DNA from: Romanomermis culicivorax
Lineage: Eukaryota > Nematoda > Enoplea > Mermithida > Mermithidae
Length of the DNA stretch: 64,000 nt
Direction: 5' to 3'
NCBI GenBank assembly: GCA_963922205.1
Contig: CAWUHX010000139.1
Location: 434,001 to 498,000 of the forward strand
This document shows, in pieces, positions 6,390 to 62,203 of this stretch (positions are counted from its first letter, which is position 1; each line of letters opens with the position of its first letter). The notes under the pieces are model-generated. The model saw only the letters and a list, made by a program, of their open reading frames with translations, was not told the DNA's origin and did not search any database. Position numbers and translations under genes: made by a program.

Positions 6390-7300
6390 CAGACAGATGA
6401 GAAGTAACACTAGAGATATAGTAGAAGAAGCAAAAGCTCTGTAACGGACAGTTAAGGAAGCTTCTGAAAACATTGCTGCTCCTATAGCAGATAGGCAAGA
6501 GCAGTTGAGTTTGGAAGTTGAACAGAGTCAAGATACTCAGAATTTAGAGTTAAGAAATTCCCTAATGAGGTTTAATTCAATGATGGCATTCAGGCCACTA
6601 GTACCTTTTTCAGGTTCTTTTGGAGAATGATTGAGTGATTGGGTAGATAGATTCCAGCAGTTCATGACTCTGCAAGGAACAGGTTATTTTGATAATACTC
6701 ACAAGGTTGCATTTTTGGAATCAAACCTGATTGGGTGCATTGGCATCATTCCATGAGTTAAGAAAGGATGGTGGTATTCAGAACACATATAATGGGTTAG
6801 TTGCAGTGTTCAAAGAAATGTACCCAGAGGGTCATGATAGTGACGTCCATTAGCAGCTCATCCATGACAGAAAACAAAAACAGACAGAAAGCCTAATGGA
6901 GTACCTGAATAAATTGAGAAAAATGTCTAGATCAGCATATCCTACACTAAGAGAGTATGCTACAAACTTGATCCTTAAACAAATTTTTATCAGAGGTCTT
7001 CAGTCAAATATCTGTGAATGGCTAAAATACAGGGATTTTCCTTCATTGAGAGAAGCAGCTAAGGCAGCTAGGTTTGCTGAATCTCAGATCTTTCGGAAGA
7101 TCTACAAGTGTTACCTCATCAAAATATCGTTTCTTCAGGCAATCAAAACGGGGAAATGGACAATCTGCAAGAAGAGTTGCATGATTTGCATCAACTAATT
7201 GTACAAAAACATGGTAAAAAGAGTGATCAGCCACAATGTTTATGGTGCAAAGGCTAAAGTCATGTAACCACTGATTGCAAAAGCAGATTGAATGGACCAC
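6390..7300 (+). pseudogene. gag: Gag remnant of copy A (Ty3/Gypsy-like)
   Basis: Translation across frames gives a Gag that aligns along its length with the Gag of the intact element at 52579-56223. Shared blocks are the capsid-like run FMTLQGTGYFDNTHKVAFLE, an ERK/DRKQKQTES region, the YPTLREYATNLILKQIF block and the KYRDFPSLREAA block. At 7222-7290 a CCHC knuckle follows (CLWC, then SHVTTDC). The gene is broken by in-frame stops (for example after FGE near 6630, near 6852, and inside the zinc knuckle) and by frameshifts near 6735 and 7100. The N-terminal part (about 6390-6600) looks coiled-coil-rich, as in the intact copy. It cannot make a full protein; capsid assembly would have been its ancestral role. 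Confidence 0.85.
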
Positions 7301-7340
7301 CTAGAGACCAGAGAGTAAGAAGTTTGAAAGTAAGCTTACC

Positions 7341-8530
7341 ATGCATGCACACAGGAGAGGTCAGACAGTTTTCAGTGCAAGGGAGAAACCTTCTAGTGGA
7401 TCCTCTAAGAAATTGAATCAAATCAATTCCAATCAGTTGGATTATGATGATGAACTTTTGACTATGTCAAATCAACAAGAAGAGCAAACAACTAGTGAGT
7501 GCTATATTATAGATGGAGAAAAATGTCTTGTTACAAAAATGGAGGACAACAGCAATGTCAAGCCCTTATTTAGCTTCCAGCTAGGAGGAAAAGATGAAAA
7601 GCCATGGGAGGAGCTTCCAATTCTGCCCTTGCCACCCAAGGAGGCAATGGGCCCCCACAAAAATATGGACGAGTACATAGAAAGATTAAATGAACTTGAA
7701 TTGACTTGGTTTTTCAAGGGGGATCAGCCAGTATTGGAGTACAAACCCTACAACCAAGGTGAAACAAAAAGTCTTTGGCTAGGGAATGCATCAGAGTAAG
7801 CAGCCAACTCTAGACAAGAGGAAGAAGTGATTGACTTTGATTTGGAACAGTTTCATCAAAATTATTCTGAAGAACAGGAGGCAATATTGGCAGACAAAAA
7901 CTCGGAGGAGTTACTGTTGAGACTCGAGGGATTTGTTCCTGGTAGTTTTGAAAGATTCAGCAGTTTTCCAAACAGCAGTAGAGTGGATAGTTATAATGAT
8001 TTGATTGATTTCAACTTGGAAGAATTCTTCAATGGCTACAACAATGAAGGTAAAGGCAATGAAAAGTTTTTGAAAGATTGTGAGAATAATACACTGAAAA
8101 GGAGTTTTAAACGTGATTTTGATGACCATGATAGCAGGACAGTAAGAGGATAAATTAACTATTTACATGCAGAAAGAAAAGTGTGCTTTTGCAATGCACA
8201 TTGTTAAGTACATGATGATGAGCCAGAGCCAACAGTGAGGAGCTTATCGAGCTTCATACCGAGCAAGGGAAAAGTGATACCCAGTGAGAAATCAATTAAA
8301 AGACACAAAACAATGAAAGGTGTGAGGGTCCAGGAAAGTTCCAGCTCAGAAGAGAAAAGTGATGAAGATGAGCTAGAAAACCCGGCACTAATAAGTAAAA
8401 GGATGATACTAAATGCCATATATTTACTTGTATGGACTTGTATTGTATTTTTACAGGCAGTATCATGGGCAAAGAAGCCTGAAAGATTAGTGACAATAGT
8501 TGTAGCAATTATCATATTTTTTTAAAATAA
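7341..8530 (+). pseudogene. Acidic linker between Gag and Env-like domain, copy A
   Basis: Three consecutive plus-strand frames (7341-7799, 7827-8153, 8235-8525) encode an acidic, Pro-containing segment. It ends in two hydrophobic stretches near 8400-8525. It occupies the place of the Pro-rich linker of the intact element, which also ends in a hydrophobic, signal-like segment just before the glycoprotein-like domain. A PLPPKEA motif near 7630 recurs as PLPSKEA in copy C, and an LEGFVPGSFE motif near 7925 resembles LNGYVPGCFD on the minus strand near 31650. The function is unknown; the terminal hydrophobic part is inferred to act as a signal or anchor. Confidence 0.55.
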
Positions 8531-8534
8531 AAAA

Positions 8535-10198
8535 TGCTTTGGATATCAAATCTGTGGTGTGTCTAAGAGTGGTCATGCTTTGGATATTCCCAAGACAGTG
8601 GAATGCCTATGAAAGAGGAAAGAATATCATTTAGAGCAGATGTGAGTATTTATGTTCCAAGAACTGAACCTCTGCAAGCGACAGCATACAAATGTTTTGT
8701 CAGGAATAGGAAGATTTGCATTTTCACTGGATTCTTTGGTTCAAAAGGGGTTTTGAATGATGAGACATTAATTGAGTCAATTAGAAAAGAAGCTTCTGAA
8801 CAGCTTTCTGAACAAAAAACAATGGAAATGAAAAACTCATTAAAATCTCTGAAGGATTTTGGAGTACAAACAAGTCACTTGAGGTGAACTACAAATGGTG
8901 TTGTGCAGAAGCATGCCAGGATGTTAGCAATTTCATGATTGAGGAAGGACAGATAGCCTCATTCAATGGACACAAAATTAGTACTGACCTTGGTGCTCTG
9001 GGTGGCTGCCATGCCATTGATGGCAGCTGTGAGGCACATCATAGTGTAATCCTTTGCTATGCTGCTGAGTTTCAGGCTGTGTGCCCAGTAGTCCACAAAG
9101 GAAAATACACATCAATATTGAGCAACAAGCATGTTATAGTTGATGAGTTAGAGGCAGCTTTGGAATTGAAAAATTCCTACCCCTACTGCCAAAATCAGTT
9201 CACAAATGCTCTGTGGACAAGCCAGGGAATAGTCCTGAAAATACATGGGAAGAAATACAAAGTAATTCCCAAACCCTATTCAATGAGACAGTCAGAAAAT
9301 TTTGGTGATTATGATGCAACATATGTGAAACTAAACTATTTGGAATACAAAATAATCGGGTTAGAAAATGATAATTTCGGACAAACTTGGATGGAACTGT
9401 GCCATCAGATACAAAGGTATCTAGAGTTTATACATGTAGATGCAACGTTAAGTGTCAGATCACTATTGCAGTGAAATAATATTACAACAGAGTTCACAGG
9501 AGAAGTTTTGACAGTACAGCCCTGTCCGCAAGTAAACATAAGTAAAATTTATGACACCTATAAAGTGGGTAATGTGTGTTATAAATATTTGCCTGTGCAT
9601 TTTGATGGTAAACTTTTGTTTGAAGTACCTGGTACAGTAGACATGATAAAAGATAGTCCAGTAATAGACTGTCATCATCAAATGGCAGATATTTTTAAAG
9701 ATAAGGCAGGCTTTAAAACAAAAACGGCACTATAATGTTAGTATGGTTCTGATTGAACTACTTTAAAGAGGATAGTCAAAACTTTTTCAGTTGAACAGTC
9801 CAGCAATATTCCATGATCAACTAGGAAATTTCCCAATGGCATTTTCATCCTCAAAGCATTATGTACACAAAATGCAAGAAACAGAAGGGGTAGTTGAAAA
9901 TGTAGTGAATTATGAAGCAGATATGTCATTACAGCCAGGTACTTTGTATGAGACACCCTCTGGGATAGGTGCTGGCATAGAAAAAAGTGCCATAGGCGCA
10001 GGGTCAGTGCTAGAAAATGTGATTAATGCAGAGAGGCAGAATATGAAAGAAGGATTGAATACTTCACTAAAGGGACTGATTCAATTGATTTTCAATGCAT
10101 TTGTTGTTGCATTAGTTCTGATAATCATTGGATTCATATTATACTCGGTGATCATTAATATATGCCAGAACAGTGGTTCATATTTAGAACCATAAATT
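8535..10198 (+). pseudogene. env: Env-like glycoprotein remnant of copy A
   Basis: The pieces at 8540-8600, 8603-8887, 8884-9474, 9508-9735 and 9791-10195 align in order with residues about 606-1150 of the intact Gag-Env frame. Shared landmarks are SGHALDIPK, YKCFVRNRKIC with GFFGSKG, YKWCC, a DLGALGGC block, the KLNYLEYKI block, EFTGEVLTVQPC, the IDCHHQM block and AIFHDQLG. A Gly-rich pre-membrane segment and a hydrophobic segment (about 10085-10150) follow. Frame changes and stops break it into at least five parts. It encodes a Cys-rich ectodomain and membrane anchor lying between gag and protease, as in the intact copy. Which glycoprotein class it belongs to is not settled. Confidence 0.8.
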
Positions 10199-10239
10199 TA
10201 AATCGTGCACAAAGCTTATGTTGAAGCTTTGGAAATGCA

Positions 10240-10852
10240 TTGTTAAGATTAAGTCAAATTAGAGCTAGACAGGAAAGAAGAAATAGGAGAACTACATCCA
10301 ATATAAATGATGATCAAAAGGAAGTAGAGTTGACAGAACTTGCTTCCACAAGTAGAGACATAGGAAATAGTGGTGCTTTAATGCTAGTTGATTCAACGAG
10401 ATGTCTTAGAACTCCTCATGTGATGATAATCATCAATGATTATGATTATACCTTGGAAACTAGTGCATTGATCGACACAGGGGCAGTTTTTTCATTGATC
10501 AATGATGATATCATGAGCAGGTTGCCAGGAGTGAAAATTGGTGAAACAACACTTAAACCAATCCCAGCTAACAGTACTCAAATACCAGTTGAAGGTTGTG
10601 CCTTCCTAACAGTCAGATGTGGAGATGTAATAGACCGTGAACATGTATATTCAAAAAAAATGTTCTGCTGATGTCATTTTCGGTACAAATTTTCTGAATA
10701 GATTTAAAAATTTTCAATTTAATTGGGCAGACTCGACAGTGATCTTCAACAAAGAAAGAATATATTGTTGTGGAATGGTATATAATACACCAATAAATAT
10801 AGGCGAACTGTACAAGGCTATGTGTCAGAAATTTATAGCAATACTGCTGTGA
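10240..10852 (+). pseudogene. Retroviral-type aspartic protease of copy A
   Basis: The frame at 10240-10671 starts with a basic segment (LRLSQIRARQERR) that matches the cytoplasmic tail of the Env-like domain in other copies (LLELANRR, LLEASNKR). It runs without a stop into a protease with an intact catalytic ALIDTGAVFSLI motif. A frameshift at a run of eight A residues near 10650 moves the rest (SADVIFGTNFLNRF) into another frame (10637-10852). In this copy no stop codon separates the tail-like segment from the protease, unlike copies D and H. Confidence 0.8.
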
Positions 10853-11250
10853 TCATATTTGAACCTAATGCATTAAACAAAACACATTTTGCAAGATCTG
10901 TTAGTGAAGTTCATAATTGACTGATCCCTCAATAGCTTATGAAGCCCAACAATTTTGATGTATAATTGTATAAGGGTCAAATGATTGGACACATAAAAGT
11001 GTATGATAGTCAGTATGATCAAGATGTAAAAGATAGATGTTGGAATAACTTCATTAATAAGCAAAAATGGATAGAACAAAATGCAAAATAGGTGGCCTTT
11101 CACTGAGGGAGAAGAGGGAGATGGTAAACCTCCTGGTTCAATATCCAGATTTATAGGGAAAGAATTAGTTTGGTAGAGCATAAAATTGAAACAAGTTGTT
11201 AGAGAATGAAGTAATTCGACTAAGCATATCTCCATGGTCAACTAATGTAA
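10853..11250 (+). pseudogene. Protease-RT spacer and RT start remnant, copy A
   Basis: Short pieces in shifting frames resemble the region from the protease to the first RT block of the intact element, ending in SISPWSTNV near 11225-11248 (compare SNSPWCTNT in the intact copy). Homology then stops abruptly and a different repeat starts near 11255, so the copy is truncated here. Support is weak outside the last block. Confidence 0.35.
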
Positions 11251-22243: not shown

Positions 22244-23085
22244 AGCATAGAAACCGTGCATACTGATGGTATAGAAGAAACCAAGGGAGTTTCATTGGAA
22301 GATAGAAGTGAAGAAAATTGGATACTTGGTGGGAAAGAAGTAGAAGGGAGTCATCCAGAATATTCTTGTAATTTTCCTCTACCATCCAAAGAGGCACTGG
22401 AAAAATGTGACACCTCCATGAACTAATTGACAATTTTAATAATTTGGATGTAATATGGAAAATCAAGGACCAGCATGTACAGTTGGAGTGCAAAAGTAAA
22501 GATAAGATAGAACTAAATGAGCTACCTAAGTTATAGAAGTTAAATGGTTCTGTGGAAGGAAGTTTTAGAATATTCTCATGGAAACAAGAACCAATTTTTG
22601 ATGACTTTGAACTAAATAACATCATCTGCAGAATCAGCTATAAATTTTGAACTAAAGAACATCATTGGAAGAATCAGCGGAAAATTGAAAGAACCCCATA
22701 AAAAACGAGGATATACTTTTCAGTGCAGAAGAAACCCAAAAATATCAAGGGATGCCTGGTATAAAAATAGTTATGTACATTTTGATAGTCCACGTGGTAC
22801 TGTGACACAAGAGTGTATGTGTGATACATGTTTTATACACTTTGCTACCCGAAAATGTGTGGCATTACGATGAAAATGGTTGCCAGATCTGCCAATGAAG
22901 TTCACTATCAAAGATATGAGACACTTGTATGGGGAATCAGAAAACAATTCTGAGGAAGAAAGGGAGGGCGGTGAAGTTGATCATGCGGATAAAAGTACAC
23001 ACATTATTGCTCATGATATATAGAAATTTGTTATTAATGTTATTCAGGTGACTCCAAGTGAGCCCTATCACATTATATTAATGAT
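22244..23085 (+). pseudogene. Acidic linker region of copy C
   Basis: The translation shifts between frames and contains PLPSKEA (compare PLPPKEA in copy A) and a Glu/Asp-rich end (near 22920-22990). A hydrophobic run follows (about 23060-23115) in the place of the signal-like segment. The evidence is positional plus short motifs. Confidence 0.45.
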
Positions 23086-23870
23086 ATTTACGGTATTGTT
23101 GTTAATAAAAATGGGATATGGAGAGCATCAATATCAAATCTTAGGATCATCTAAAAGTGGTCATGCTATTGAGTCACCTAAATATGTGGAATGCAGGTTA
23201 CCAATAAAGGGAGAAGCAAAACCTCATTGCAAAAACATTAGTATAAGCTTACAAATGCTTCACAAGAGAAAGAAACATTTATATTTTAACAACTTTCTTT
23301 AGTCCAAAAAGCGTCATAAATGACAATGTGAGAGTAGATGCTAAGACATGTGAGGCAGCCTATGTTAGCAAAAGATGACGAGGTAACATTTTAGTTGGAA
23401 AATCATCAGGTGTGTGGACTACCAATTTGACATTAAAAGTAGATTATAAATGGCACTATACGGATATGTGTCAAAGAATGACAAATTTTCTGATAGAGGA
23501 AGGAAAAATAGCTATGTGGAATCCTCACACATTGGTTACTGACCTGGGAGACATAGATAACTGCAAATCCATGTCCAGCATTTTTAACAGTCATGATGGT
23601 ATTATTTTATGGGATAATAAAAATTTTAACAATATCTGCCCTGTAGAAGAACCTAAGTCAGCAAATGAGATTCCAAAATTGAGAAATAATAGAAGTACAA
23701 TAAGTAGAAATCAAGAAATTTAAGATTAGTGCATGACTATCATTATATAGCTTTGAGTCAACTTATCCATGAATCAAAAGACAATTCACAATACATTGAA
23801 CAGCAGGATGCAGATGTAGACAAAATGGTACGTCTTAGCAGTAAGGCTGGTGGAACTGGATGTTGAACCA
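23086..23870 (+). pseudogene. env: Env-like N-terminal half of copy C
   Basis: After a hydrophobic segment the translation gives SSKSGHAIESPKYVEC (compare SLSGHSVSIPKLVSC in the intact element). The frame at 23412-23723 gives LTLKVDYKWHYTDMC, FLIEEGKIAMW, VTDLGDIDNCK, IILWDNKNFNNICP. All are collinear with residues about 610-790 of the intact copy. Stops and frame changes interrupt it near 23300 and 23380. Homology fades after about 23870, before the membrane anchor. Confidence 0.7.
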
Positions 23871-38399: not shown

Positions 38400-38800
38400 T
38401 TATCAAGAATAACAGTATTTCGATGGGATAGAAAAGACTATGCAGCATACCTTCACAAGGCATAGGTTGCTTTCTAAATTTCACATGAGATAATTCCCAA
38501 TTGAATTCAGTTGTTGGAAATGTTGGTAGGAAATTTGTGCCTAGGATAACATCAGAAGTACAGTTTTCCTGAATGTGGACTTGAATTGTCTCACTGACGT
38601 CATGGGCAGAGACTATAACAATAGCTCAACTGTGGAGGTCTATTCTAGCCCCACTGGCAGCTATAAGACATGCATTTGTTGGATGTATCTTTAGATTGGG
38701 GAGCATTCCCAAAATTTTTACATCCGTTCAGGTGTAAACTGCACCAGTATTAATCAAAGCTTTAGCTATGACACAGTTATTGATCAGAAAAATAGCATGA
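38400..38800 (-). pseudogene. Aspartic protease of copy D
   Basis: Read on the minus strand, the translation gives ALINTGAVYT (Asn where the catalytic Asp belongs, codons near 38760-38740), a stop soon after, then VSETIQVHIQENCTSDVILG and TNFL, then HVKFRKQPMPCEG. The order matches the intact protease (ETIMVHVQKDCTADILLGKNFL, QVKFGNVILPCDG). It follows the Env-like tail directly and in the same frame, separated only by one UAA at 38896-38898. Confidence 0.75.
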
Positions 38801-38895
38801 GGTGTAGGTTCTGGTGGAAAATCAATACTAGCACAATTTTCCTCTTCTATGTTTACATGATCAGTTTTATTATTGAACTGTATACTGTGATTTTG

Positions 38896-40130
38896 TTATT
38901 GTTTGACAAATTTTAATTTTAGCTTAGGTTGGTTTTTCCTCTTATTGGATGCTTCCAATAATGTATGTAATGAATAGCTAGATTTGGGAGATTCATTTGG
39001 TGGCAAAACAGTTGCAGGATTTTGTCTTCTCCATTTGATATGCCTTAAGAAAAGAACATAGGCAAAATATACAAGAATAAAAATTACGCACAGGAGGATC
39101 AGAATATTATGTAAAGGTGGAGCTTTGACCAAACTACCAAATGAGGTGGATAAAATATCACCTTCAGTTTTAAGTACATCTTCAAAGGATTGCCCAATTC
39201 CTTGAAGTGTTGTTTTGATTCTTTTTTGGTTCCACAAAGCACATTATAGACAGAATTAGGATCAAGTGAATTAGCAGAAGTATAGTTAACTACATTATTC
39301 AATATTGATTCCTATTTGTGTGTTTTGAATAGGTACTGATGTAAAAACACAAAATTTGTGGATGTCATGAAAAATTGATATTTTAATGAACTGGAACATT
39401 TCATGTTGGCCCCGCTACAAAGGTTGAATGGGCACATAAGTGACCTAAATAAGTCCTGTTTGAGTGACTCATTGCTCTTTTTATTAAAAATGACCACTGG
39501 TTGATGGGTACAGTCAACTTTTGGACTGAAATCATTCAGATCAGAACTGCCTGGGATAACAAACATCGTTTGGTTTCCTAGGAAACTTGGCAGATATTTG
39601 TAGCATGATGAATTAAATTTATAATTTTCATAGATCTTATCCATTTTTACCGGCTTGCAAGGCCATACAGTAAGGACTTCACTTGTGAAATCTGCTATTG
39701 CATCTTGCGTTTGCAATGAAGCAGGTATGTCATGAATAGGATCGAAGACAAGTAATTGCCAAATAATGTCCAAGTGCTTTTGGGCATATGGGCACATTTC
39801 AAGACAGATGTAGCAAAAATTATCAATTTTTCTCTGCACCAAAGCATCATGAATTTCAGGACTATTTTGATAACCCGACTTGAGGGCCTTTTGAATTTGG
39901 TCAATAATGATATAGCTGCTGCTGATTTTAGCTTGATAGGGGCTTTTGAACAATACTAGACAGAAATGTGAAAAAATAGTTTGGTTTCAAATTACGGTAC
40001 TTTCATGATTTACACATTCACTAGCATTGGGCACACATCCACCTAAATCTTCTAAGTCACTGCTTAGTAGCACACCATCCCATGATGCAACTTGATCTTG
40101 TTCTGTGGGAAAATTGTCAATTATGTCTGA
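38896..40130 (-). pseudogene. env: Env-like glycoprotein of copy D
   Basis: On the minus strand from about 40130 downward: VASWDGVLLSSDLEDLGGC (matching IASWNGKSMTGTLGDLGSC of the intact copy), a frame at 39953-39312 with AQKHLDIIWQLL, EVLTVWPCKPV, SCYKYLPSF and VDCTHQPV, then 39302-39100 with NNVVNYTSANSLDPNSVYNV, and 39237-38896 with a hydrophobic membrane segment (NILILLCVIFILVYFAYVLF) and a tail containing LLEASNKRKNQPK. Frame changes and stops break it, for example near 40000 and 39300. The order is that of an ectodomain, membrane anchor and cytoplasmic tail leading into protease, as in the intact element. Confidence 0.8.
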
Positions 40131-40144
40131 AATGCAGCACAAAA

Positions 40145-40720
40145 TAAAGGCAAGTCTAAAACCTATCGAAGTGCATGGATCATTTGAACTTTTGGCAGTA
40201 GACTGCATGGATCCACTGACCCAAACTGAAAATGGTAATCGATTCATAATGGTATTTATAGATCACTTCACAAAATAGTTGGAAGCATTTGCTACAATAA
40301 ACATCATTGCCTGATGCTCCAAGAATATTACAATTCAACAGAGGCACAGACCTCATGTCTAGACTCATGAAAGGAATTACAAAATTGATGAATTTTACTA
40401 AAGTGCATACTAGGCCATACTATCCCATAGCAAATGGTGGAGTAGATCCTTCTAACCAAACAATAGCAACACAGATTTGAATGTATGTGGATAAGAACCA
40501 TAATGGCTAGAATAAACATTTGCCCTATGCCATTTTCACAGCAAATATACACTCAAATAGCAGCACAAAGCATAGTCCTTTTGAAGTTGTCTTTGGTCCA
40601 AGACCTGTTTTGCAAATTAATCATTATCCGTCATCATATCCAAACGATGTGGCTGATTATCATCTAGAAGCGAAAAATCATTTCATTAATGCTTTGAAAT
40701 TTTTTATGGTTCTCACTTGA
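40145..40720 (+). pseudogene. Integrase core fragment (copy E)
   Basis: The plus-strand translation begins with SFELLAVDCMDPLTQTENGN, then RFIMVFIDHFTK, then after frame changes YYPIANGGVD, NQTIATQI and the C-terminal region FTANIHSNSSTKHSPFEVVFG. All are collinear with the intact integrase (residues about 860-1050). The first catalytic Asp is visible; the DRGTD block is degraded and the position of the catalytic Glu reads Asp. It is head-on against the minus-strand env remnant of copy D. Confidence 0.8.
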
Positions 40721-44845: not shown

Positions 44846-44936
44846 AATTTAGGGGAAACAGTTGAACTCTTTGACACCCAGTAGGTGCAGTTTTCATTCA
44901 GAGAAAACTGATTTTGAAGGAATAGACATCTTCCCT

Positions 44937-45520
44937 GAAGATTAGAGTAATTATTCTCGCTGTGTCTGCCAGCATTATAGGGGGGGGCAGGTGATGGCAA
45001 GGTGTTGGCCCAGCATACATATAAAAATGCAAAAAAATAAGTGCAATTTCTTGCTTTAATGATTTTTTTTAAATGTATGTGCCACATAGGACCATAGATT
45101 TGTAATAGCCATTATCAAATGTTTGAGCGAAAAATCCCACAGTAAAACCTTTGTGCAAATACCTTTTGGGAAGGTACTTGTTTCTGCTATTTTCAATTTA
45201 CAATCATTTTGTAAATTTGTTCGAAATTTTGAAATTTTCATGTCAAGATAATAATTTTGTGTAATCAAGTTTTTGATTGATTTTGTCTTCTTCTTTTCCT
45301 GCAGCGTCAAATGTAGCCCAAGCTGCACAGAAAGCCAAAGCTAAAACAACAGATGATGCTTATGACGAATTCATGAAAGAAATGAAGGACATGATGTGAA
45401 ATTCAGAAAAAAACATCTACCCTAAAGATTAGAGTAATTATTCTCCCTGTGTCTGCCAGCATTGTAGAGGAGGGGCAGGTGATGGCAAGGTGTTGGCCCA
45501 GCATACCCATAAAAATACAT
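44937..45520. repeat. 95 bp direct repeats flanking a candidate exon
   Basis: GAAGATTAGAGTAATTATTC through GGTGTTGGCCCAGCATACAT (44937-45022) recurs from 45424 to about 45512 with few differences (AAAGATTAGAGTAATTATTC through GGTGTTGGCCCAGCATACCC). Period is about 487 bases. The candidate terminal exon at 45305 lies between them. Confidence 0.65.
45305..45399 (+). CDS. Candidate last exon of an unrecognised host gene
   Basis: A strong acceptor (TTTTGTCTTCTTCTTTTCCTGCAG, pyrimidine-rich) precedes a 95-base open segment ending in TGA. In phase it encodes Ala/Lys-rich residues then DDAYDEFMKEMKDMM and stop. The composition is protein-like, and a short acidic-amphipathic C-terminus of this kind is typical of some RNA-processing proteins, but I cannot name the gene. 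No upstream exon was found. Of the host-exon candidates this has the best splice signal. Confidence 0.4.
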
Positions 45521-47765: not shown

Positions 47766-48072
47766 ACAGAGGGTAGTGAGAAATGATAGAAATTGAAACA
47801 TTTTAGCAAAAAATGCAGCTTTTTTAGAATCTTGAAGATGCTTCTTTATAGCTACCATCATAGTCCCAATACATGTTTTTGGCTGCCCATCAAGTGGTAC
47901 AACAAACATATGTGCTAACATCTCGAAACTGTAGCAAATGCAGGTGGTGATTACAGAGTTTTCTTCTATCATTCTAGTTGATTGACTGACCAAGACAGAA
48001 TTTCACTGCTGGTATGCAAAAAGATATGTGTTATGGCTAGGAAATTGAAAACAGGCTTTTCAATTTTGACAT

Positions 48073-48962
48073 TGTAACGACCAGATTTCTGTGAGGTACT
48101 TTACTTGGACCAATCGGTCGATACGGCGGGGTAAATAACGGGACGGGGGCGCGGGCGTACGATTACAACACAACAACGGGTAATCGACGGTCGCTTGAAC
48201 GTCGACAAAATAAAATGGGGGCGGCGCGGTTGCTTGCAAATAACAAAATACACGACACGGTTTAATTGCTTTCGAAGATGGTTGCTTGCAAATGCGGGCG
48301 CGGGGGCAAAATAAAAACGATACAAGAATAAGAATGAAAAAAATCATGCTTTGCTTTTTCTTTTATACGGCGATTTTGGCCACTCCCTGGGCGCTGCGGG
48401 AGGTCGAGCTTCTGTCCATTTTCTTCCGCCAATCGTCGTTTCTGGCTACGCTTTTTATGCTTTCTTAATAACGCCTCTCTAACGCTTTTCTGGTACCGTA
48501 TGCTTTCTGTGCTTCACTTGCTTTCTACGGTGGGCTTGGCCACACCTCTGTGCTTCTGTGCATGCTTCCTGTATCGGTTTCTCTGTATACACATGTTTTG
48601 TGGGGCCGCCGCTACTGTTACACTTGAGACTACTGTACAGCGGGGCTTCTACGTATTTTACTGTGTGCAGGTGTTGTTTACGATTTTTACGGGGGATTAC
48701 GGTAGCTGTGGAATGTGTAGTTTAGTGTGGGTTCTAGGGGAACAGCTGCCGTTTGTGCAAATTAATTAGGGCATCTTAATTGGGCTACCGGGGTGTGAAC
48801 GGATCAAAATAAAGTACTTCACGTAATTTTGTAGGAATGTTTGGGTGTGAATCCCAGACATCCTTGAGACGATAAAATGTGAAAATAAAATAATATCTAA
48901 TAAATGTCTATTACATACAGTATGCTACATATTTACAGTACTGCTTTAGCAGGTACGTTACA
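48073..48962 (-). repeat. 3' LTR of copy H
   Basis: 890 bp, begins TGTAACGACC and ends GGTACGTTACA (plus-strand reading), with a 7 bp perfect terminal inverted repeat. In the element's orientation it has a TATAAAAG box (48367-48360) and an ATTAAA polyadenylation-like signal (48266-48261). Ten of the eleven differences from the other LTR are transitions. Confidence 0.95.
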
Positions 48963-48978
48963 TTTCCCTCCTTCCGGA
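48963..48978 (-). promoter_or_regulatory. Polypurine tract of copy H
   Basis: On the minus strand the 16 bases directly before the 3' LTR read TCCGGAAGGAGGGAAA, nearly all purine, and abut TGTAACG. This is the expected plus-strand primer of reverse transcription. A similar AAGGAGGGGAA precedes the putative LTR of copy I at 62204. Confidence 0.8.
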
Positions 48979-48993
48979 GTTGAACGTCCTCGT

Positions 48994-51900
48994 TCAAGGC
49001 TTTCGAGGTTGAGGAGGGGTGGGGGTAGATTCGTTAGCTGCTTTCCGAGGGTAGAAAGGGGTTGTTTCGTTTACATGCACCGTAAATGTAATATTCTTAT
49101 GGGGGTGTTTGAGTGTAACGTTAGGGTACATGAAATTTGTAACTGTATAGGGCCCGCTCTGGCGAGGGAGGAATTTGGGAGTCAGCCCTTGTTTACACGA
49201 ATGATTTTTGTAGAGAATAAGATCACCTGCCTTGTAATCTATGTTTTGAGCATGCTTGTTATACTGACGGGTGTAGTGGGCTTGGGCTTTTTGCAAACTT
49301 TTCTGCACGGTTGAGAGCGCTTCTGAGAAATGCGATTTTACACGAAGGGCGTAATCGTCTAAATCAACCATGTAGGACGTGGGGAAAAAGTTTAAGGCTG
49401 CGTCTGACGGCAGATTAGCTTGCCTACCGTGAAGTAATTCAAATGGGGGATACGAAGTGCTATCATTTTTATGAATGTTGATCGAAAAAACAGCATACGG
49501 GAGATAAGTATCCCAATCAGTGTGATTTGAATTGATGTACATGCGGATACGGGTGGCTAGGGTTTGGTTGCAACGCTTAACTTCTCCATTGGCAATGGGA
49601 TGGTATGGGGTAGTATGAATTTTCTGAGTATTGCATAAACTGGTGATCCGTGAGAAAAGATCAGATACGAAATCGGTGCCACGATCACAATGGATGATTT
49701 TTGGGGACCCATGACGACAAACAATTTTGGTTACGAATAACTTGGCAATAGTGGCTGCGGTGATGTCAGGGGTCGGGAATGCCTCTACATACTTTGTGAA
49801 ATAATCGATGAAAACGACAATGAATCGGTTGCCGTCTTCAGTGAGGGGTAACGGTCCCATGCAATCAACACCAACTCTATCAAAGGGGCCAGTCGGCTGA
49901 ATTGGTACCAGGTTTGCATGCACTTTGTGTCTAAGAGCTTTCTGTGTCTGGCATGGGTGGCAAGTTTTGCAGTAACGTTTGATATCATGGCTCATCTGGG
50001 GCAAAAAGTATTTTTGTCTGAGCAAGTGTAAAGTTTTCCGGGCCGCAAAATGACCTGTGAATTTGCTGTCATGATGTGAGGCGATGAGATGCTGGACTTG
50101 CGACTTGGGAATGTATAGTTTTGCCTGTTTGTCGACTATACGGAAGAGAATGTTTTGATGCACTGCGAATTTGATCAGGGTAAGGGGGTGTTTTTGGGCG
50201 ATTTTTGCTAAGATACTTTTGACAGTTGGGTCAGTGCGTTGGAGTTCGGCAAAATTTTTCTGTTGCTCTTCTTGTTCAGTTGCTTCGGCTTCCAAAACTG
50301 AATTGATAGTTGATATTTCGGGGCGGGTTTCTAATTGCTCAATATCAAAGGATTGCTTTGCTGTCTGTGAGGGGAATCGAGAAACTGCATCTGCATTGCG
50401 GTTAGCAGTGCCTTTCTTAGGTCGAATGTCGAGTTGAATACCAGAGAGGGCTAATCCCCAACGGGCAATGCGAGGGGACGGGTTTTCCTTTTGTAAGACT
50501 GCCTGAACTGCTGTGTGGTCAGTGTGTACAATGACATGTTGCTGGAAAAGATAGGGGCGGAAATACTTGACAAATTCGACTACTGCAAGGGTTTCCAATT
50601 CAGTGATCGGATAGTTGCGTTCTGCGGGCTTCAATGTGCAGCTCCCAAAGGCAATGGGGCGATCCTGACCTTTACTATCGAGCTGACTGAGAATGGCGCC
50701 GATTCCGAGTTTTGAGGCGTCAGTTTGCAGAATAAACGGTTTTGTGAAATCTGGGTGCTGCAGTATTGGGGCCTGAATGAGTAATTCTTTTAGCTTAGTG
50801 AATGCATTTTGCTGTTTGGGGCCCCAGGAAAATTCGGAATTCTTTTTGAGTAGCGATGTGAGTGGGCTAGAAACTTGAGAGCAATTTGGGATGAATCTGC
50901 GATAATATGAGGGTAGGCCAAGGAATGACTTAACTTCTTTTGAGGTTTTGGGTGTGGGTATGTCATAGATGGCCTGTACCTTATGGGGATCTGGTGAAAT
51001 GCCTTGCTGAGAAATGACGTGGCCTAAGTATTGGACTTGGGGCTGGCAGAATTTGCATTTTTGTATGTTTAGCTTGAGGCCTGCTTGTGAGAATCGGGCA
51101 AGAATAGTGTCTAAACGTTCCAGCATTTGGGCATGGGAGTCTGCGAATACTAAAACATCGTCGAGATATACAAGGCATGTGTTCCATTGCAGACCCGAAA
51201 GAATAACATCCATTAACCTTTGGAATGTGGCTGGGGCATTGGTGAGTCCATTGGGGAGGTAATTGAATTGATACTGGCCGGCTGAGCAATTAAAGGCCGT
51301 TTTTTCTCTGTCTGCTTGTGCTATGGGAATGGAATAGTATGCATTCGATTGGTCAAGGGACGTAAAATATTTCATTCCCCGGAGGGTGTCTAGAATTTCG
51401 TCTATACGGGGCAAGGGGTAGGTATCTTTTTTGGTGACTTTGTTGAGGCCTCTAAAATCAATGCATAAACGATGGCCTCCATCTTTTTTGGGGACTAGAA
51501 CTGTATTGGTACACCATGGAGAATTGCTTTGGCTTATGACACCTGCTGCTGCGAGTTGCTCAACTTCTGCTTGTATGATTTGCTTTTCTTTTGGGGAAGT
51601 CCGATAAAGTTGTCTACGTACGGGTTGGGAGCCATTGGTGTCAATTGTATGCGAAACGAGGGTGGTTCTACCTACATCCATTTTGGATTTAGCATATAAT
51701 GTAGGGTACTTCGATAGGGCGCGTAGGATTTGCATTTTCTCGGTTTCTGTGAGGTCACTGGAGGTCAAATTGACGTTTTCTTTTAACCATGTGAATGTAT
51801 CAAAACGGTTGGGCTGGTTTTGCGTTGAAGGGGTTAGATTAGCGGGAGCATTTTGTTTTGGGATGTAACATGAGACTGTACCAATGCATGTTCCAGGATA

Positions 51901-52464
51901 AAGAATTTGGGCTGTTTCTTGTGTGTTTAAGACGGATATGCGTATGCGACTGTTTTGATTTTCAGAGATGCAAGCTGCGAAATGGACTTTAGAGTTCTGT
52001 TTGGGTTTCGGGGTGAATTCAAGCTGTTTGACCTGTAAGTACGATTTGGGCAAGGGGACAGTAAATTCCGTTACTGTACAGTGTGGTAATTCTAATTTCT
52101 CGTCTAGATAAGTTCCACCACGAGTTGAAAGAGGGCTATATTCTAGGCCATCACAGGGTAGTATAACATTGCCAAATTTGACCTGTGATTTTTGATTGTT
52201 GATAGTGTATTCCGAAAAACGACTGAGAAAGTTTTTGCCTAGAAGGATGTCTGCTGTGCAATCTTTTTGAACATGGACCATGATTGTTTCCTGGATTGTT
52301 TGGGCAGTCACTGTGACAAAAGTGGTCCCTACAAAGTGAATTGGAAGATTATTTGCTGCTTTTGCTTGGACTAGCGGGGGTTTCATGTCTAATTGTAAAA
52401 GTTGCGCGACTCGGGAATCAATGAGTGAGTAAACTGCATCAGTGTCAATCATGCCTTTTGTCAT
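48994..52464 (-). CDS. pol: Pol of copy H: protease, RT, RNase H, integrase
   Basis: 1156 codons from the first ATG; the frame is open upstream to the UGA at 52581, so the real N-terminus is probably 38 residues earlier or in a readthrough product. Domains: protease (1-110) with MIDTDAVYSLID, where the family has DTG, so residue 9 is Asp instead of Gly, followed by ILLGKNFL; RT (about 300-480) with TSLDQSNAYYSI (D371) and YLDD (433-436), intact; RNase H (about 575-695) with D582, E622, D649, D692, intact; integrase with zinc residues (H798, H805, C832, C835) and D867, D927, but Lys at 963, exactly 36 residues after D927 where the catalytic Glu belongs; GPY motif at 1104-1106; no chromodomain. 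It would copy and insert the element's DNA. RT and RNase H look competent; protease and integrase do not. Confidence 0.93.
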   Translation of the reverse strand: MTKGMIDTDAVYSLIDSRVAQLLQLDMKPPLVQAKAANNLPIHFVGTTFVTVTAQTIQETIMVHVQKDCTADILLGKNFLSRFSEYTINNQKSQVKFGNVILPCDGLEYSPLSTRGGTYLDEKLELPHCTVTEFTVPLPKSYLQVKQLEFTPKPKQNSKVHFAACISENQNSRIRISVLNTQETAQILYPGTCIGTVSCYIPKQNAPANLTPSTQNQPNRFDTFTWLKENVNLTSSDLTETEKMQILRALSKYPTLYAKSKMDVGRTTLVSHTIDTNGSQPVRRQLYRTSPKEKQIIQAEVEQLAAAGVISQSNSPWCTNTVLVPKKDGGHRLCIDFRGLNKVTKKDTYPLPRIDEILDTLRGMKYFTSLDQSNAYYSIPIAQADREKTAFNCSAGQYQFNYLPNGLTNAPATFQRLMDVILSGLQWNTCLVYLDDVLVFADSHAQMLERLDTILARFSQAGLKLNIQKCKFCQPQVQYLGHVISQQGISPDPHKVQAIYDIPTPKTSKEVKSFLGLPSYYRRFIPNCSQVSSPLTSLLKKNSEFSWGPKQQNAFTKLKELLIQAPILQHPDFTKPFILQTDASKLGIGAILSQLDSKGQDRPIAFGSCTLKPAERNYPITELETLAVVEFVKYFRPYLFQQHVIVHTDHTAVQAVLQKENPSPRIARWGLALSGIQLDIRPKKGTANRNADAVSRFPSQTAKQSFDIEQLETRPEISTINSVLEAEATEQEEQQKNFAELQRTDPTVKSILAKIAQKHPLTLIKFAVHQNILFRIVDKQAKLYIPKSQVQHLIASHHDSKFTGHFAARKTLHLLRQKYFLPQMSHDIKRYCKTCHPCQTQKALRHKVHANLVPIQPTGPFDRVGVDCMGPLPLTEDGNRFIVVFIDYFTKYVEAFPTPDITAATIAKLFVTKIVCRHGSPKIIHCDRGTDFVSDLFSRITSLCNTQKIHTTPYHPIANGEVKRCNQTLATRIRMYINSNHTDWDTYLPYAVFSINIHKNDSTSYPPFELLHGRQANLPSDAALNFFPTSYMVDLDDYALRVKSHFSEALSTVQKSLQKAQAHYTRQYNKHAQNIDYKAGDLILYKNHSCKQGLTPKFLPRQSGPYTVTNFMYPNVTLKHPHKNITFTVHVNETTPFYPRKAANESTPTPPQPRKP

Positions 52465-52578
52465 TAATTTGCCGTTAAGTGTGATTGGAATATGAGGGGT
52501 ATGTTTCTCAGGTACATTTTGGGGTGGCTTATTTGATGCAGATTGGTGAATTTGATTAATGAGTTCGATTGCAGGAGT

Positions 52579-52581
52579 TCA
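52579..52581 (-). other. In-phase UGA between Gag-Env and Pol
   Basis: The Gag-Env frame ends DIDTP then UGA. The following 38 codons to the first ATG of pol are open in the same phase (114 bases, no other stop), starting TPAIELINQ. Context on the coding strand is CCC UGA ACU. Pol could therefore be made by stop-codon readthrough, a known route in gammaretroviruses (there UAG). It may also be a recent nonsense change. Confidence 0.75.
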
Positions 52582-54474
52582 GGGGGTATCAATATCGACA
52601 AGGACGTATTTCTGCTGTGTTTGTGCCCCACGACGATTAGCTAATTCTAAGAGAGCATGGCCGAATGATGGGGGAATGGTCTCATGTAAATGTCTGTTGT
52701 TTGATGGTATTTCGTATGCATGTTCGGTTGTGGCATGATGCTTTGGAGAGGGGAAATATTTTCGAAGAACGAGAAACGAATAAATGATGCCTGCAATAAC
52801 TACAGTAATAATGGCGAGATTGATAATGATTTGCAGGGGTCCTTTGAGTAAATTGTTTAAGCCGTCCGTGAGACTTTGGGTGGTACCGGTTATTACATGT
52901 TCTATGCCTTGACCAGCGCCAGAGAGTGTATCTCCGAGTGCTTGACCAGTGCCTGAGATCATGTTGTAAACTGTATCGGAATTGAGAGACATTTGGGCGG
53001 TGTAATTGACGAGTTTTTTGACAATGAATTCGAGTGTGTGAGTTTTGTAAATGTATTGTTTCAAAAAGAGTAAGTTGGTTGAAATAGTTGCAAGTTGATC
53101 ATGAAAAATGGCGGGTGTGTTAAAATGGAAAAGGGAGAAATTTTGGTTCCAGACGATTTCTAAAGGTAAATTTGTGACATGCGGGGATCCTGTTTCACTG
53201 ACCCATGTATTATTCTGTTTGTAAAGGGCTACATGCATGTGATGGCAGTCAATGGTTTGTGAAAAAGGGGTCAAATCGTTGCCTCCTGGGTTTGAAAACA
53301 TGAGTTCCGTTCCTACGAGAATGGGTAAAAGTTTGTAGCATGTTTGGTTGATTTTGTGGTTGTAAAAGACTTTGGATGCGTTTACCTGCTTGCAGGGCCA
53401 GACTGTGAGGGGTTCTCCTGTGAATTCCGCTGTTATGTCTGTTCGCTGTAGGAATGCACGTGCTCCAAGGGTTGCATCAAGACGTAAAATTTGCCATATG
53501 AGATCAAGGTGACGCTGTGCCTGTCTGCATAATTCATTCCATACATTTTTGAAATTTTGAATTTCGAATTCCTGTATTTTGTCTGCTAGATAATTTAGTT
53601 TTGCATTAATGGGTTCAAAATCATCAAAATCGTATAATGTAGTATGAGTTTCGTTGGTTTTTGGGGTTAAAAATGCGTTACGATGTGGGGTGCTTTTGTC
53701 TAATTGTACGATAATGCCTTGTTCGGTTAGAATGCTATCTTGGATTTCTGGGCAATTGGGGTTCGAAAAAACTGTATTTTTAACCGAGAATGCACCTTGT
53801 AGTTCTTCTATTATCATGTGTGTTTGCGTGAGTTTGATGGGATGTGTATTTTTGTATTCGAAAGGGCATAAGTTTTCAAATGCTGTTTCGTTCCAGATAA
53901 TGGATCCGTCGGCTGTGACACAATGACCTGATGTCGGTTTGCATGACCCTAGGTCGCCTAATGTACCTGTCATAGATTTTCCATTCCAAGATGCTATTTG
54001 TCCTATTTCTATGATGATGTTAGTGACCGAGGTACAATGGTCTGTACAACACCATGTGTATTCTACGCTTAGGGAGTTATTTGTTGACCAAAATCCTGGT
54101 TGGGTTTCGTATAATTTTTGACCGTTGTGTTCTTTGTCTATAACCATTGCCTTACAAACATGTTGGGTTAGATTTTGCATTTCGGTTTGGTCGAAGACAA
54201 TACCTTTTGATCCAAAAAATCCTGTATTAGTACAAATTTTGCGTTTGCGAACACTGCATTTGTATGCGTCTGTAATGTGGGGCTTAGTGGAGGGGATATA
54301 GATTTTTCCGAATGTTTGTACGGGTTTGTCTACTGTGGAAGGGGGCATGCATGATACAAGTTTTGGTATGCTGACTGAGTGACCGCTCAATGAAGTTCCA
54401 CACATCTGAAATTGGGCACTACACGATGTGGGGATTATTATACATAAAAATAAACAATACAATGGCCAATGTAG
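52579..54474 (-). other. Env-like domain within the Gag-Env frame
   Basis: This is the membrane glycoprotein-like part (residues 584-1214). Conserved blocks recur in copies A, C and D: SGHSVSIPK, YKCSVRKRKIC with GFFGSKG, YTWCC, TLGDLGSC, AKLNYLADKI, RHLDLIWQIL, EFTGEPLTVWPC, CYKLLP, IDCHHMHV, AIFHDQLA, a Gly-rich segment, an anchor and LLELANRR. Conservation of Cys-containing blocks across decayed copies indicates it was under selection as a protein. A receptor-binding or fusion role is inferred from layout only. Confidence 0.75.
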
Positions 54475-56223
54475 TGTTTTAGTGGAGGCGGCGGGGTACT
54501 GTGTTTTTTCGCTCTGCTCGATTTGGCGTGGCGGTTTTTGGTGTTGTCGTTTTGCGGTTTTGCGCTGGGGGGGTGGCCGGTTTGAAATCTGAACATTCTG
54601 TAAAACTTTAGAAGTTGAATTATGGGATGGGGTTTGGACTTGCTTACTTGCGGGGGTCGGTAGCAATGTTTGGCGGGGGCGGAATTGGTAGGGTTCGGGG
54701 GTCAGGCCGTGTAAGAGGGACAATAAGTTGCGACCTGTTTTCGACGGGGTTTCGGGGGTGGTGGGCGGCGTTGTGTCTTGCTTTCGGGGGATCTTGTAGC
54801 CTACGGGGATGGTGGGCCGCGATTTTTCGATTTTTGCGGCTTCAGGCGTGGGGGGTGGGGACATGGCGCACCAATCGGGTACGTCCAGATCAAGGACGTA
54901 TTCGTCACTACGGCGGTGGGTGTTGGGCATGATAGTTCCTAAAGTAGTCTGAGGGCCGTTAGTTATGGCGGGTAATTTTGAGTAAAATGCGGGGTCATCA
55001 ATGTCCATGAGGGGTTGGGGTTGCCTGTACTCAATGCAAGTTTGAATATTACGACTCTGCTGATTCGGGCAATACCTGCTTGTATGACCTCTCTGCTTGC
55101 ATATAAAACACTGAAAATTGGAGTAGGGTTTTGAAGGGCAGTTATCTGATCTATGTCCTGTTTGGGAGCAGTGGATGCATGGGCTTTTACAATCACGCGT
55201 ACTGTGATTATTACGGAAACAGATTTCACATGATTTTCGGGTGCCTACTGATTTACAATTACGAGCTACGTGTCCTATTTGTCCACACTGGAAGCATGTG
55301 GGTTGCCTGGGGGTGGTATTGTTCCTGTAAGCATTATTCCTGCTGAAAGTGTTGTTACTGAAATTGTTGTAGCTACTTTGTTGTGGGGGTTGAGGTTTTT
55401 GTTTGATCTGCAACTGTAAATCTTTTACTTGTTGTTCTAACTGATGCAAAAGATCCTGTTGGTCTGTGTTTTTGGTGAGGGAAAAGATGGGTTCGGGTTT
55501 TGGGGGTATGAAGGGAAGGGCGTTAGACTTTAACTCATTTCTAAGAATTTGCTGTTCAATGTAAGCTGCTTTGTCTGACATTTCTTTTAGAGTTGCGAAC
55601 CTTCTATACTTGATTGCTTCCCTGATTTCGTTTTGCATGCCTTCTACAAAGAGGGGTTTTATGATCATTTCTCGTGCGTCTGTGTTAAAGTTAGGGTAGG
55701 CGAGGGTTGCGAGATGTTCTAGATCAAATAAGAATTCTGTTACTGTTTCTGATCGCTTTTGTTTTCTTTCGCGTAGGAATTGTTGATGTAGCTCATTATC
55801 TCTATTGTTTGGGAAAAATGCCTGTAATGCGACTTTATACTGTTCGTATGTGTGGGGAGGGTTTTCGGAATTTGCTAAACTTTTGAACTTTGCTAACGCG
55901 GCTCCTCCTAAATGAATTTCTAAACATGCCAACTTTAACTGTACGTCTGTATCTTTCATGCCTTGGAGTGCCATGAATTGTTCTAATCTTTTGTTCCATT
56001 CACCAAAATGTTGGGTCACGCCGCCCGTGAATACTGTAGGTTTCGCGTAGAAATTGTTTGCCATGTTATTACGAATGTTTGCTGTTCTTAGATCGTCTAT
56101 TAGGGTAGGGTTTACTGTATTCTGATTCAATTGTGTGCGTAGGGTACGTAAATGTTCTGAAAATAAATCGTTTATCTGTTCTCTAACGATTTCTCCTAAA
56201 TGATCTTGCGTTTGGTGGGTCAT
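52579..56223 (-). CDS. gag-env: Gag-linker-Env-like fusion protein of copy H
   Basis: 1214 codons. Residues 1-235: helical capsid-like Gag (FMALQGMKDTDVQLKLACLE, ERKQKRSETVTEF). Residues 310-385: four CCHC knuckles (310-323, 332-345, 349-362, 372-385). 400-580: Pro/Thr/basic linker. 587-603: hydrophobic, signal-like, ending SCSAQ. 604-1130: ectodomain with many Cys and about nine N-x-S/T sites. 1080-1128: Gly-rich repeats (GTGQALGDTLSGAGQGI). 1130-1152: membrane segment. 1153-1214: cytoplasmic tail with LLELANRR. The glycoprotein part is Env-like by layout; the Gly-rich pre-membrane region recalls class III fusion proteins, but this is inference. The ATG at 56223 is the first in frame, yet the frame is open 111 codons further upstream. 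Fusion of Gag to an Env-like domain ahead of pol is unusual. Confidence 0.9.
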   Translation of the reverse strand: MTHQTQDHLGEIVREQINDLFSEHLRTLRTQLNQNTVNPTLIDDLRTANIRNNMANNFYAKPTVFTGGVTQHFGEWNKRLEQFMALQGMKDTDVQLKLACLEIHLGGAALAKFKSLANSENPPHTYEQYKVALQAFFPNNRDNELHQQFLRERKQKRSETVTEFLFDLEHLATLAYPNFNTDAREMIIKPLFVEGMQNEIREAIKYRRFATLKEMSDKAAYIEQQILRNELKSNALPFIPPKPEPIFSLTKNTDQQDLLHQLEQQVKDLQLQIKQKPQPPQQSSYNNFSNNTFSRNNAYRNNTTPRQPTCFQCGQIGHVARNCKSVGTRKSCEICFRNNHSTRDCKSPCIHCSQTGHRSDNCPSKPYSNFQCFICKQRGHTSRYCPNQQSRNIQTCIEYRQPQPLMDIDDPAFYSKLPAITNGPQTTLGTIMPNTHRRSDEYVLDLDVPDWCAMSPPPTPEAAKIEKSRPTIPVGYKIPRKQDTTPPTTPETPSKTGRNLLSLLHGLTPEPYQFRPRQTLLPTPASKQVQTPSHNSTSKVLQNVQISNRPPPQRKTAKRQHQKPPRQIEQSEKTQYPAASTKTLHWPLYCLFLCIIIPTSCSAQFQMCGTSLSGHSVSIPKLVSCMPPSTVDKPVQTFGKIYIPSTKPHITDAYKCSVRKRKICTNTGFFGSKGIVFDQTEMQNLTQHVCKAMVIDKEHNGQKLYETQPGFWSTNNSLSVEYTWCCTDHCTSVTNIIIEIGQIASWNGKSMTGTLGDLGSCKPTSGHCVTADGSIIWNETAFENLCPFEYKNTHPIKLTQTHMIIEELQGAFSVKNTVFSNPNCPEIQDSILTEQGIIVQLDKSTPHRNAFLTPKTNETHTTLYDFDDFEPINAKLNYLADKIQEFEIQNFKNVWNELCRQAQRHLDLIWQILRLDATLGARAFLQRTDITAEFTGEPLTVWPCKQVNASKVFYNHKINQTCYKLLPILVGTELMFSNPGGNDLTPFSQTIDCHHMHVALYKQNNTWVSETGSPHVTNLPLEIVWNQNFSLFHFNTPAIFHDQLATISTNLLFLKQYIYKTHTLEFIVKKLVNYTAQMSLNSDTVYNMISGTGQALGDTLSGAGQGIEHVITGTTQSLTDGLNNLLKGPLQIIINLAIITVVIAGIIYSFLVLRKYFPSPKHHATTEHAYEIPSNNRHLHETIPPSFGHALLELANRRGAQTQQKYVLVDIDTP

Positions 56224-56556
56224 TCTTGGTTTACGATGGGATTTCTGCTTAAATGCTTCAATTTTTGCTTCACGCTGTATTCGTTTAAATGTATCGCTTA
56301 ATGTCTCGTTGGAGGGGATTTCCAGTTTGCTTTCTACGAATACTGTCTTACTGTAGGAAATGATTACTGCTGTATTATCTAATGCTTCTAAATGCCCGGA
56401 TAAGAGTACACCTAACTGGGGGCAGGGAGTTCCACTGGTTAACGTAACGGTACGGTCACCAAAATATGTAACGACCAGATTTCTGTGACGTACTTTACTT
56501 GGACCAATCGGTCGATACGGCGGGGTAAATAACGGGACGGGGGCGCGGGCGTACGA
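56224..56556 (-). other. Open frame upstream of the gag ATG, reaching into the 5' LTR
   Basis: In the gag phase there is no stop from 56556 (after a UAA at 56559-56557 in the LTR) to the ATG at 56223: 111 codons, with no ATG. The part in the leader looks protein-like (SDTFKRIQREAKIEAFKQKS next to the ATG). Initiation at a non-AUG codon, or joining by splicing, would extend Gag N-terminally. A different frame of the LTR (56741-56439) encodes 100 codons from an ATG close to the expected transcription start. Confidence 0.4.
56444..56461 (-). promoter_or_regulatory. Putative primer-binding site of copy H
   Basis: On the minus strand, five bases after the LTR end, TGGTGACCGTACCGTTAC begins with TGG, the complement of a tRNA CCA end. 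The first eight bases resemble a tRNA-Trp 3' end as I recall it, but the match does not extend, so the primer is not identified. Confidence 0.35.
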
Positions 56557-57356
56557 TTACAACACAACAACGGGTAATCGACGGTCGCTTGAACATCGAC
56601 AAAATAAAACGGGGGCGGCGCGGTTGCTTGCAAATAACAAAATACACGACATGGTTTAATTGCTTTCGAAGACGGTTGCTTGCAAATGTGGGCACGGGGG
56701 CAAAATAAAAACGATACAAGAATAAGAATGAAAAAAATCACGCTTTGCTTTTTCTTTTATACGGCGATTTTGGCCACTCCCTGGGCGCTGCGGGAGGTCG
56801 AGCTTCTGTCCATTTTCTTCCGCCAATCGTCGTTTCCGGCTACGCTTTTTATGCTTTCTTAATAACGCCTCTCTAACGCTTTTCTGGTACCGTATGCTTT
56901 CTGTGCTTCACTTGCTTTCTACGGTGGGCTTGGCCACACCTCTGTGCTTCTGTGCATGCTTCCTGTATCGGTTTCTCTGTATACACATGTTTTGTGGGGC
57001 CGCCGCTACTGTTACACTTGAGACTACTGTACGGCGGGGCTTCTACGTATTTTACTGTGTGCAGGTGTTGTTTACGATTTTTACGGGGGATTATGGTAGC
57101 TGTGGAATGTGTAGTTTAGTGTGGGTTCTAGGGGAACAGCTGCCGTTTGTGCAAATTAATTAGGGCATCTTAATTGGGCTACCGGGGTGTGAACGGATCA
57201 AAATAAAGTACTTCACGTAATTTTGTAGGAATGTTTGGGTGTGAATCCCAGACATCCTTGAGACGATAAAATGTGAAAATAAAATAATATCTAATAAATG
57301 TCTATTACATACAGTATGCTACATATTTACAGTACTGCTTTAGCAGGTACGTTACA
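56467..57356 (-). repeat. 5' LTR of copy H
   Basis: 890 bp, same ends as the other LTR. In transcription order: U3 from 57356, TATAAAAG at 56761-56754, expected start near 56735-56725, ATTAAA at 56660-56655, U5 to 56467. The TATA box and polyadenylation-like signal are about 95 bases apart, giving a short R region. Confidence 0.95.
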
Positions 57357-57360
57357 ACAT

Positions 57361-61535: not shown

Positions 61536-61539
61536 TCAC

Positions 61540-62178: not shown

Positions 62179-62191
62179 TCCTTCAACTTCA

Positions 62192-62203
62192 CAAGGAGGG
62201 GAA
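62192..62203 (+). promoter_or_regulatory. Polypurine tract of copy I
   Basis: CAAGGAGGGGAA directly precedes the TG start of the putative 3' LTR, in the same position relative to the end of pol as in copy H. Confidence 0.55.

Follow-up and report, generated by a model that had tools for sequence, protein, structure and literature searches.

The 64-kb window analyzed here, a stretch of 64,000 nucleotides from a contig of the nematode Romanomermis culicivorax, contains a long terminal repeat (LTR) retroelement (48073-57356, minus strand) in which a predicted envelope (Env) fusion glycoprotein is encoded between Gag and the protease. The element is bounded by two 890-bp LTRs (5' LTR, 56467..57356; 3' LTR, 48073..48962) that differ at 11 substitutions (98.8% identity), have TG...CA termini and are flanked by a 4-bp target-site duplication, ATGT (57357..57360 on the 5' side and 48069..48072 on the 3' side). 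A candidate primer-binding site that starts with TGG lies 5 bases past the 5' LTR (56443..56461), and a polypurine-rich tract precedes the 3' LTR (48963..48976); ARAGORN detected no tRNA genes in the window, and an Rfam scan of the window was likewise empty. The interior consists of two open reading frames (ORFs) on the same strand: ORF1 (52579..56223), which encodes Gag-Env, 1214 amino acids (aa) from the ATG to a terminal TGA, and ORF2 (48994..52578), which encodes Pol. The two share the same phase and are separated by this single TGA (52579..52581), at the boundary between the Env tail and Pol. At the base composition of ORF1 itself, 1214 stop-free codons would arise by chance with a probability of about 1e-28. 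Because only 31 nucleotides (nt) separate the pol stop codon from the 3' LTR, there is no room for an env gene 3' of pol.

The N-terminal portion of ORF1 includes a Gag capsid-like region (residues 97-220; 55564..55935), recognized by sub-threshold Pfam matches to Retrotrans_gag (E 1.3e-4; 22.6 bits, slightly below the cut-off of 24.1) and Ty3_capsid (E 1.3e-3; 18.7 bits, far below the cut-off of 29.1) and by homology to the N-terminal parts of three related proteins described below (P0003, P0004, and P0008). Next come four CCHC zinc knuckles (residues 310-385; 55069..55296), identified by Pfam and motif search, all of the form CX2CX4HX4C and starting at residues 310, 332, 349, and 372, and a linker that joins them to a signal-like hydrophobic segment (residues 583-604, hydrophobic to about 609; 54412..54477) preceded by a K/R-rich stretch. 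The remainder of ORF1 comprises the Env ectodomain (residues 603-1127; 52843..54417), with 9 N-X-S/T sequons and 16 cysteines, a membrane anchor predicted by hydropathy (residues 1130-1152, hydrophobic from about 1124 to 1158; 52768..52836), and a putative cytoplasmic tail (52582..52767). A first-pass annotation made from the sequence alone had proposed this arrangement for the 1214-codon frame, from Gag through the cysteine-rich ectodomain to the tail, and ORF, motif, hydropathy, and Pfam analyses bear it out.

The ectodomain matches the Pfam family PF24664, a Monjiviricetes-type glycoprotein (E 1.3e-18). A Foldseek search of the PDB with a low-confidence Env model retrieved gB with an E-value of 5e-15, and the best 50 of its 466 matches were all herpesvirus glycoproteins; the predicted fold is thus gB-like, as in class III glycoproteins. 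From the profile match and this predicted fold, we assign the Env ectodomain to the class III (Monjiviricetes/gB-like) fusion glycoproteins. Among the Pfam matches of the element there was no F-type family of the kind represented by baculovirus Env, the class III family being matched instead. The profile and structure searches therefore point to viral glycoproteins, as the first-pass annotation had supposed, and recovered no non-membrane or host fold; on the strength of the PF24664 and gB matches, a host or non-membrane protein was rejected as the middle domain. A further PDB sequence search gave four matches, one of them to a glutamate receptor at E 1.

Beyond the TGA, the Pfam domains of ORF2 follow in the order protease (PR), reverse transcriptase (RT), RNase H (RH), H2C2, and rve (integrase, IN), in agreement with the in-phase Pol proposed initially. 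In a PDB sequence search, Pol best matched Ty3 Gag-Pol (E 2.7e-122); the next other names were "Enzymatic polyprotein" (E 3.9e-59), which we take to be a caulimovirus-type entry, and Pr125Pol (E 7e-41), presumably retroviral. The second, acquired RNase H of Retroviridae is absent from the Pfam matches, which place RNase H in the RT-adjacent region (584-711) only. With the Pol order PR-RT-RH-IN, an RT closest to that of Ty3, and TG...CA LTRs with a duplication within the 4-6 bp range, the element fits Metaviridae, and its Pol is, by sequence, of the Ty3/Gypsy type and not strictly retroviral. The element had initially been called intact. Both frames are indeed open, but the TGA occupies a site that is open in four relatives (P0003, P0006, P0010, and P0011), and the protease motif is DTD, versus DTG or DSG in all six relatives that have the motif. 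Because of these differences, the simplest reading here is decay, which probably accounts for both the TGA and the changed protease triad, and the copy is unlikely to be fully functional despite its open frames.

Searches of protein databases yielded seven relatives that contain Env. The Env part of ORF1 retrieved two proteins from 5712 candidates (P0003 and P0004), and an Env profile, with shorter lengths permitted, retrieved three from 3164 candidates (P0005, P0006, and P0007). Of 7987 candidates scored with the Pol query, 3711 matched at E up to 1e-30; PF24664 was present in two of the best 120 of these, P0010 and P0011, which rank 3rd and 4th. Run against the 127 collected proteins, the Env profile matched 8 at E up to 1e-3, including the three used to build it. 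P0003 is a single 1500-aa chain with the order Gag-CCHC-Env-PR-RT, P0004 is a 1186-aa Gag-Env protein, P0006 carries Env-PR-RT on one chain, and P0005 is a fragment. P0007, from the nematode Romanomermis culicivorax, is 52% identical to the window Env over 44% of Env. P0005 and P0006 are filed under bacterial metagenome-assembled genomes (Gammaproteobacteria and Desulfobacteraceae), which is probably due to contamination with eukaryotic DNA. The Env of the open chains is 31-41% identical to that of the window element. The Gag identities, computed with composition correction off, are 23% for P0003 (E 2e-12) and 25% for P0004 (E 7e-16); the Pfam Gag match is sub-threshold in P0003 and missing in P0004, and the Gag assignment of both rests on similarity to the window Gag.

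A protease is present in four of the seven Env relatives (P0003, P0006, P0010, and P0011), and in each of them Env lies immediately upstream of it in one frame. None of these four, which are the ones that reach Pol, has Env 3' of pol; the other three are uninformative in this respect. Gag is found in two of the seven, directly upstream of Env and fused to it in both, so that, with the window element counted, the Gag-Env frame is open in 3/3 chains. The proposal that a lineage places env upstream of the protease thus holds on one chain in four relatives, as well as in the window copies B and D described below, and env solely 3' of pol was seen in none of the relatives that could show it. Scans of viral contigs with Env and with Pol, tblastn against phages, and a genome contig scan with Env produced no matches; the genome contig scan with Pol produced seven loci, none with an Env match and two with a weak Gag match.

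In a tree of RT-RNase H (66 rows picked from 117 usable ones; a quick method without bootstrap), the window element forms one RT clade of six with P0008, P0009, P0010, P0011, and P0015 (Shimodaira-Hasegawa-like approximate likelihood ratio test, SH-aLRT, 100), the inner branching order of which is not settled. RT-RNase H identity to the window element is 58-64% inside this clade and 40% for P0012; further Pol matches among those listed show at most 50% identity across about half of the query. The clade supports a distinct lineage, as first proposed, with the qualification that its Pol is Ty3/Gypsy-type and not that of a retrovirus proper. The closest relative by tree path, P0008, is a 1903-aa Gag-Pol chain with four knuckles and no recognizable ectodomain, in which two hydrophobic stretches persist between the zinc knuckles and the protease; either env was lost or the chain reflects a spliced form. 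In P0009, an anchor-like segment precedes the protease, and the chain is truncated upstream of that segment; P0015 is a fragment. The Pols of P0003 and P0006 are more distant from the window element than the clade of six; in a tree of 132 columns, which took in one non-RT row (P0001), a single clade for eight rows was unrejected (approximately unbiased test, p-AU 0.978), which is no proof of a clade.

Further copies were detected in the window by tblastn with the main element masked. Decayed copy B (6547..11088, plus strand) consists of separate Gag (6547-7108), Env (8490-10231), and PR (10405-11088) pieces with broken frames, the best of which show 43%, 36%, and 28% identity to a query, respectively; it reads open from the Env tail to the protease despite the breaks elsewhere. 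Decayed copy D (38437..40172, minus strand) comprises Env (40172-39168) followed by PR (38853-38437), also as separate pieces, and Env fragment C lies at 23075..23648 on the plus strand. Env precedes PR in all three window copies that have both (the main element, B, and D). Because copies B and D diverge so strongly from the main copy, they are, by sequence, separate divergent families and not its duplicates. Isolated Gag, Env, and Pol pieces are also present elsewhere in the window.

The reading that we favor, with a probability of about 0.72, is that a Ty3/Gypsy-type lineage took up a class III glycoprotein between Gag and the protease and expresses gag-env-pol as one frame. The gene order, the continuity of the frames, and the homology are read from the sequences, and the fold is predicted; because the frame is continuous at differing sequence depths, a polyprotein is favored. 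The same continuity suggests, as in the initial proposal, that Gag and Env would be made as one chain. The succession of Gag, signal-like segment, ectodomain, anchor, and Pol is consistent with a topology of two membrane crossings. Cytosolic ribosomes would synthesize Gag and the linker first, the internal hydrophobic segment would then open translocation, so that the ectodomain enters the lumen of the endoplasmic reticulum and is glycosylated, and the anchor would halt transfer, leaving the tail, and Pol where fused, in the cytosol. The two crossings would place Env outside and Gag and Pol on the opposite, inner side of the membrane. By analogy with LTR elements and class III proteins already characterized, signal peptidase and the protease of the element could release the parts. 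No spliced env message would be needed to bring Gag, Pol, and Env to the same place on the membrane, and the assembled particle could enter another cell via class III fusion.

Several observations weigh against this reading. In the window copy, Env and Pol are split by the TGA, and no RNA fold favoring read-through was found near it (z +1.42). P0004 also stops after the Env tail, such that the Env-PR junction is open in four of the six chains that reach it; P0011 starts right before the ectodomain, with neither signal segment nor Gag; and elements of the P0008 type seem to manage without the ectodomain. The charge bias at the two hydrophobic segments of the window element is weak (net +2 before the first and 0 after the second). 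The confidence of the Env model is low (mean predicted local distance difference test score, pLDDT, 58.0; predicted template modeling score, pTM, 0.37) and remains so in a second model built with eight sequences (mean pLDDT 58.9), and a PDB sequence search with Env alone gave no match at E up to 10. Finally, because the search method favors long fused chains, the counts of order and fusion are biased.

The alternative that survives best treats the TGA as a regulated read-through site that sets the ratio of Gag-Env to Gag-Env-Pol. In murine leukemia virus, the stop codon between gag and pol is such a signal, and the equal phase on both sides of the TGA would fit this role, as would the fact that both frames are otherwise open though the two LTRs have 11 differences in 890 sites. 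However, the frame runs uninterrupted from Env into the protease in four relatives, copy B remains open at this junction though broken elsewhere, and the protease triad is altered too; given the folding z-score, a structured read-through signal at the TGA was rejected, and we consider regulated read-through unlikely. Somewhat less probable still is a version in which the gene order is as described but Env is translated, like its retroviral counterparts, from a subgenomic message made by splicing, and the open gag-env-pol frame is incidental. In-frame Met codons between the knuckles and the signal segment (for example, residue 406) could serve such a message, the P0011 chain opens with an ATG shortly before the ectodomain, and env is spliced in classical env-bearing retroviruses and errantiviruses. 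This mode of expression needs no frame continuity, yet at 31-41% Env identity Gag-Env is open in 3/3 chains and Env-PR in 4/6, with the reservation that detection of the chains relied on open frames, which biases the count towards open ones.

It is improbable that env behaves as an intron-like module, with unspliced RNA giving Gag-Env, removal of env giving Gag-Pol, and the TGA being functional. The position of the TGA directly after the tail and the Gag-Pol chain of P0008 without the ectodomain would suit this scheme, and the contigs of the P0008 source (lgn) may, we assume, include transcripts; however, P0003, P0006, P0010, and P0011 read openly through env into the protease, so that splicing is unneeded. 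A chance frame, an assembly join, or nesting of an env-bearing insertion in a gag-pol element has negligible probability and was rejected: the window is full of broken retroelements, but distinct proteins in the databases, which derive from several sources, show the identical order, and their Gag, Env, and Pol are homologous.

Other features of the window include the integrase end of an element related to the main one (61457-62234, plus strand; 58.6% aa identity and 68% nt identity over 706 columns) and a DNA polymerase B-like fragment of organellar/viral type (30615-30932, plus strand; PF03175, E 0.0023, below the cut-off), possibly a Polinton-like remnant. There is also a transposase fragment (34782-35057, plus strand; PF13359 DDE_Tnp_4, E 6.9e-14), which we take to be Harbinger-type, and a direct repeat of about 115 bp in two copies with a spacing of 487 bp and about 90% identity (44918-45519).

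The known order in retroviruses and env-bearing LTR elements is gag-pol-env, with env last and expressed separately; in errantiviruses (gypsy-type, env-bearing Metaviridae), env lies 3' of pol and is made from a spliced RNA. The window element resembles Ty3/Gypsy elements in its Pol domain order, CCHC Gag, TG...CA LTR ends, 4-bp duplication, and Ty3 Pol as the best PDB match, and differs in having env between gag and the protease. With errantiviruses it shares the combination of a Ty3/Gypsy Pol and a viral fusion glycoprotein, but its env precedes pol in the same frame and encodes a class III protein, whereas errantivirus env is of likely baculovirus origin (PMC12440569). That LTR elements can capture Env, also from negative-strand RNA viruses, is already known from Anakin and bdelloid TelKA (PMC7642597, PMC5408684). 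Anakin is likewise an LTR element with a Jingchuvirales-type (chuvirus) glycoprotein, modeled on type B glycoproteins, but has a BEL/Pao Pol in contrast to the Ty3-type Pol of the window element (PMC7642597). TelKA also acquired a fusion protein from negative-strand RNA viruses, but this is a paramyxovirus class I protein encoded by ORF3 downstream of pol (PMC5408684). A 2023 survey of arthropod genomes reports Gypsy fragments beside Jingchuvirales glycoproteins in insects but no clear case in which Gypsy or Copia elements had captured such a glycoprotein (PMC10084718). None of the matches listed in the open-licence PMC literature has env between gag and pol, which is not proof of absence.

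We give even odds to the broader proposal that an old, widespread reverse-transcribing lineage encodes its fusogen inside Gag-Pol and keeps Gag and Pol membrane-associated through the two crossings of the fusogen; this would be a third way of making an enveloped retro-particle, next to env splicing and the loss of env. If the favored reading is true, this would be a case of a Ty3/Gypsy element whose fusogen resembles the ones found in negative-strand RNA viruses, and it would raise the testable question of one chain that reaches both sides of the membrane and is then cut. An Env apparently kept in mid-polyprotein through deep divergence would show that the gag-pol-env order is not forced.
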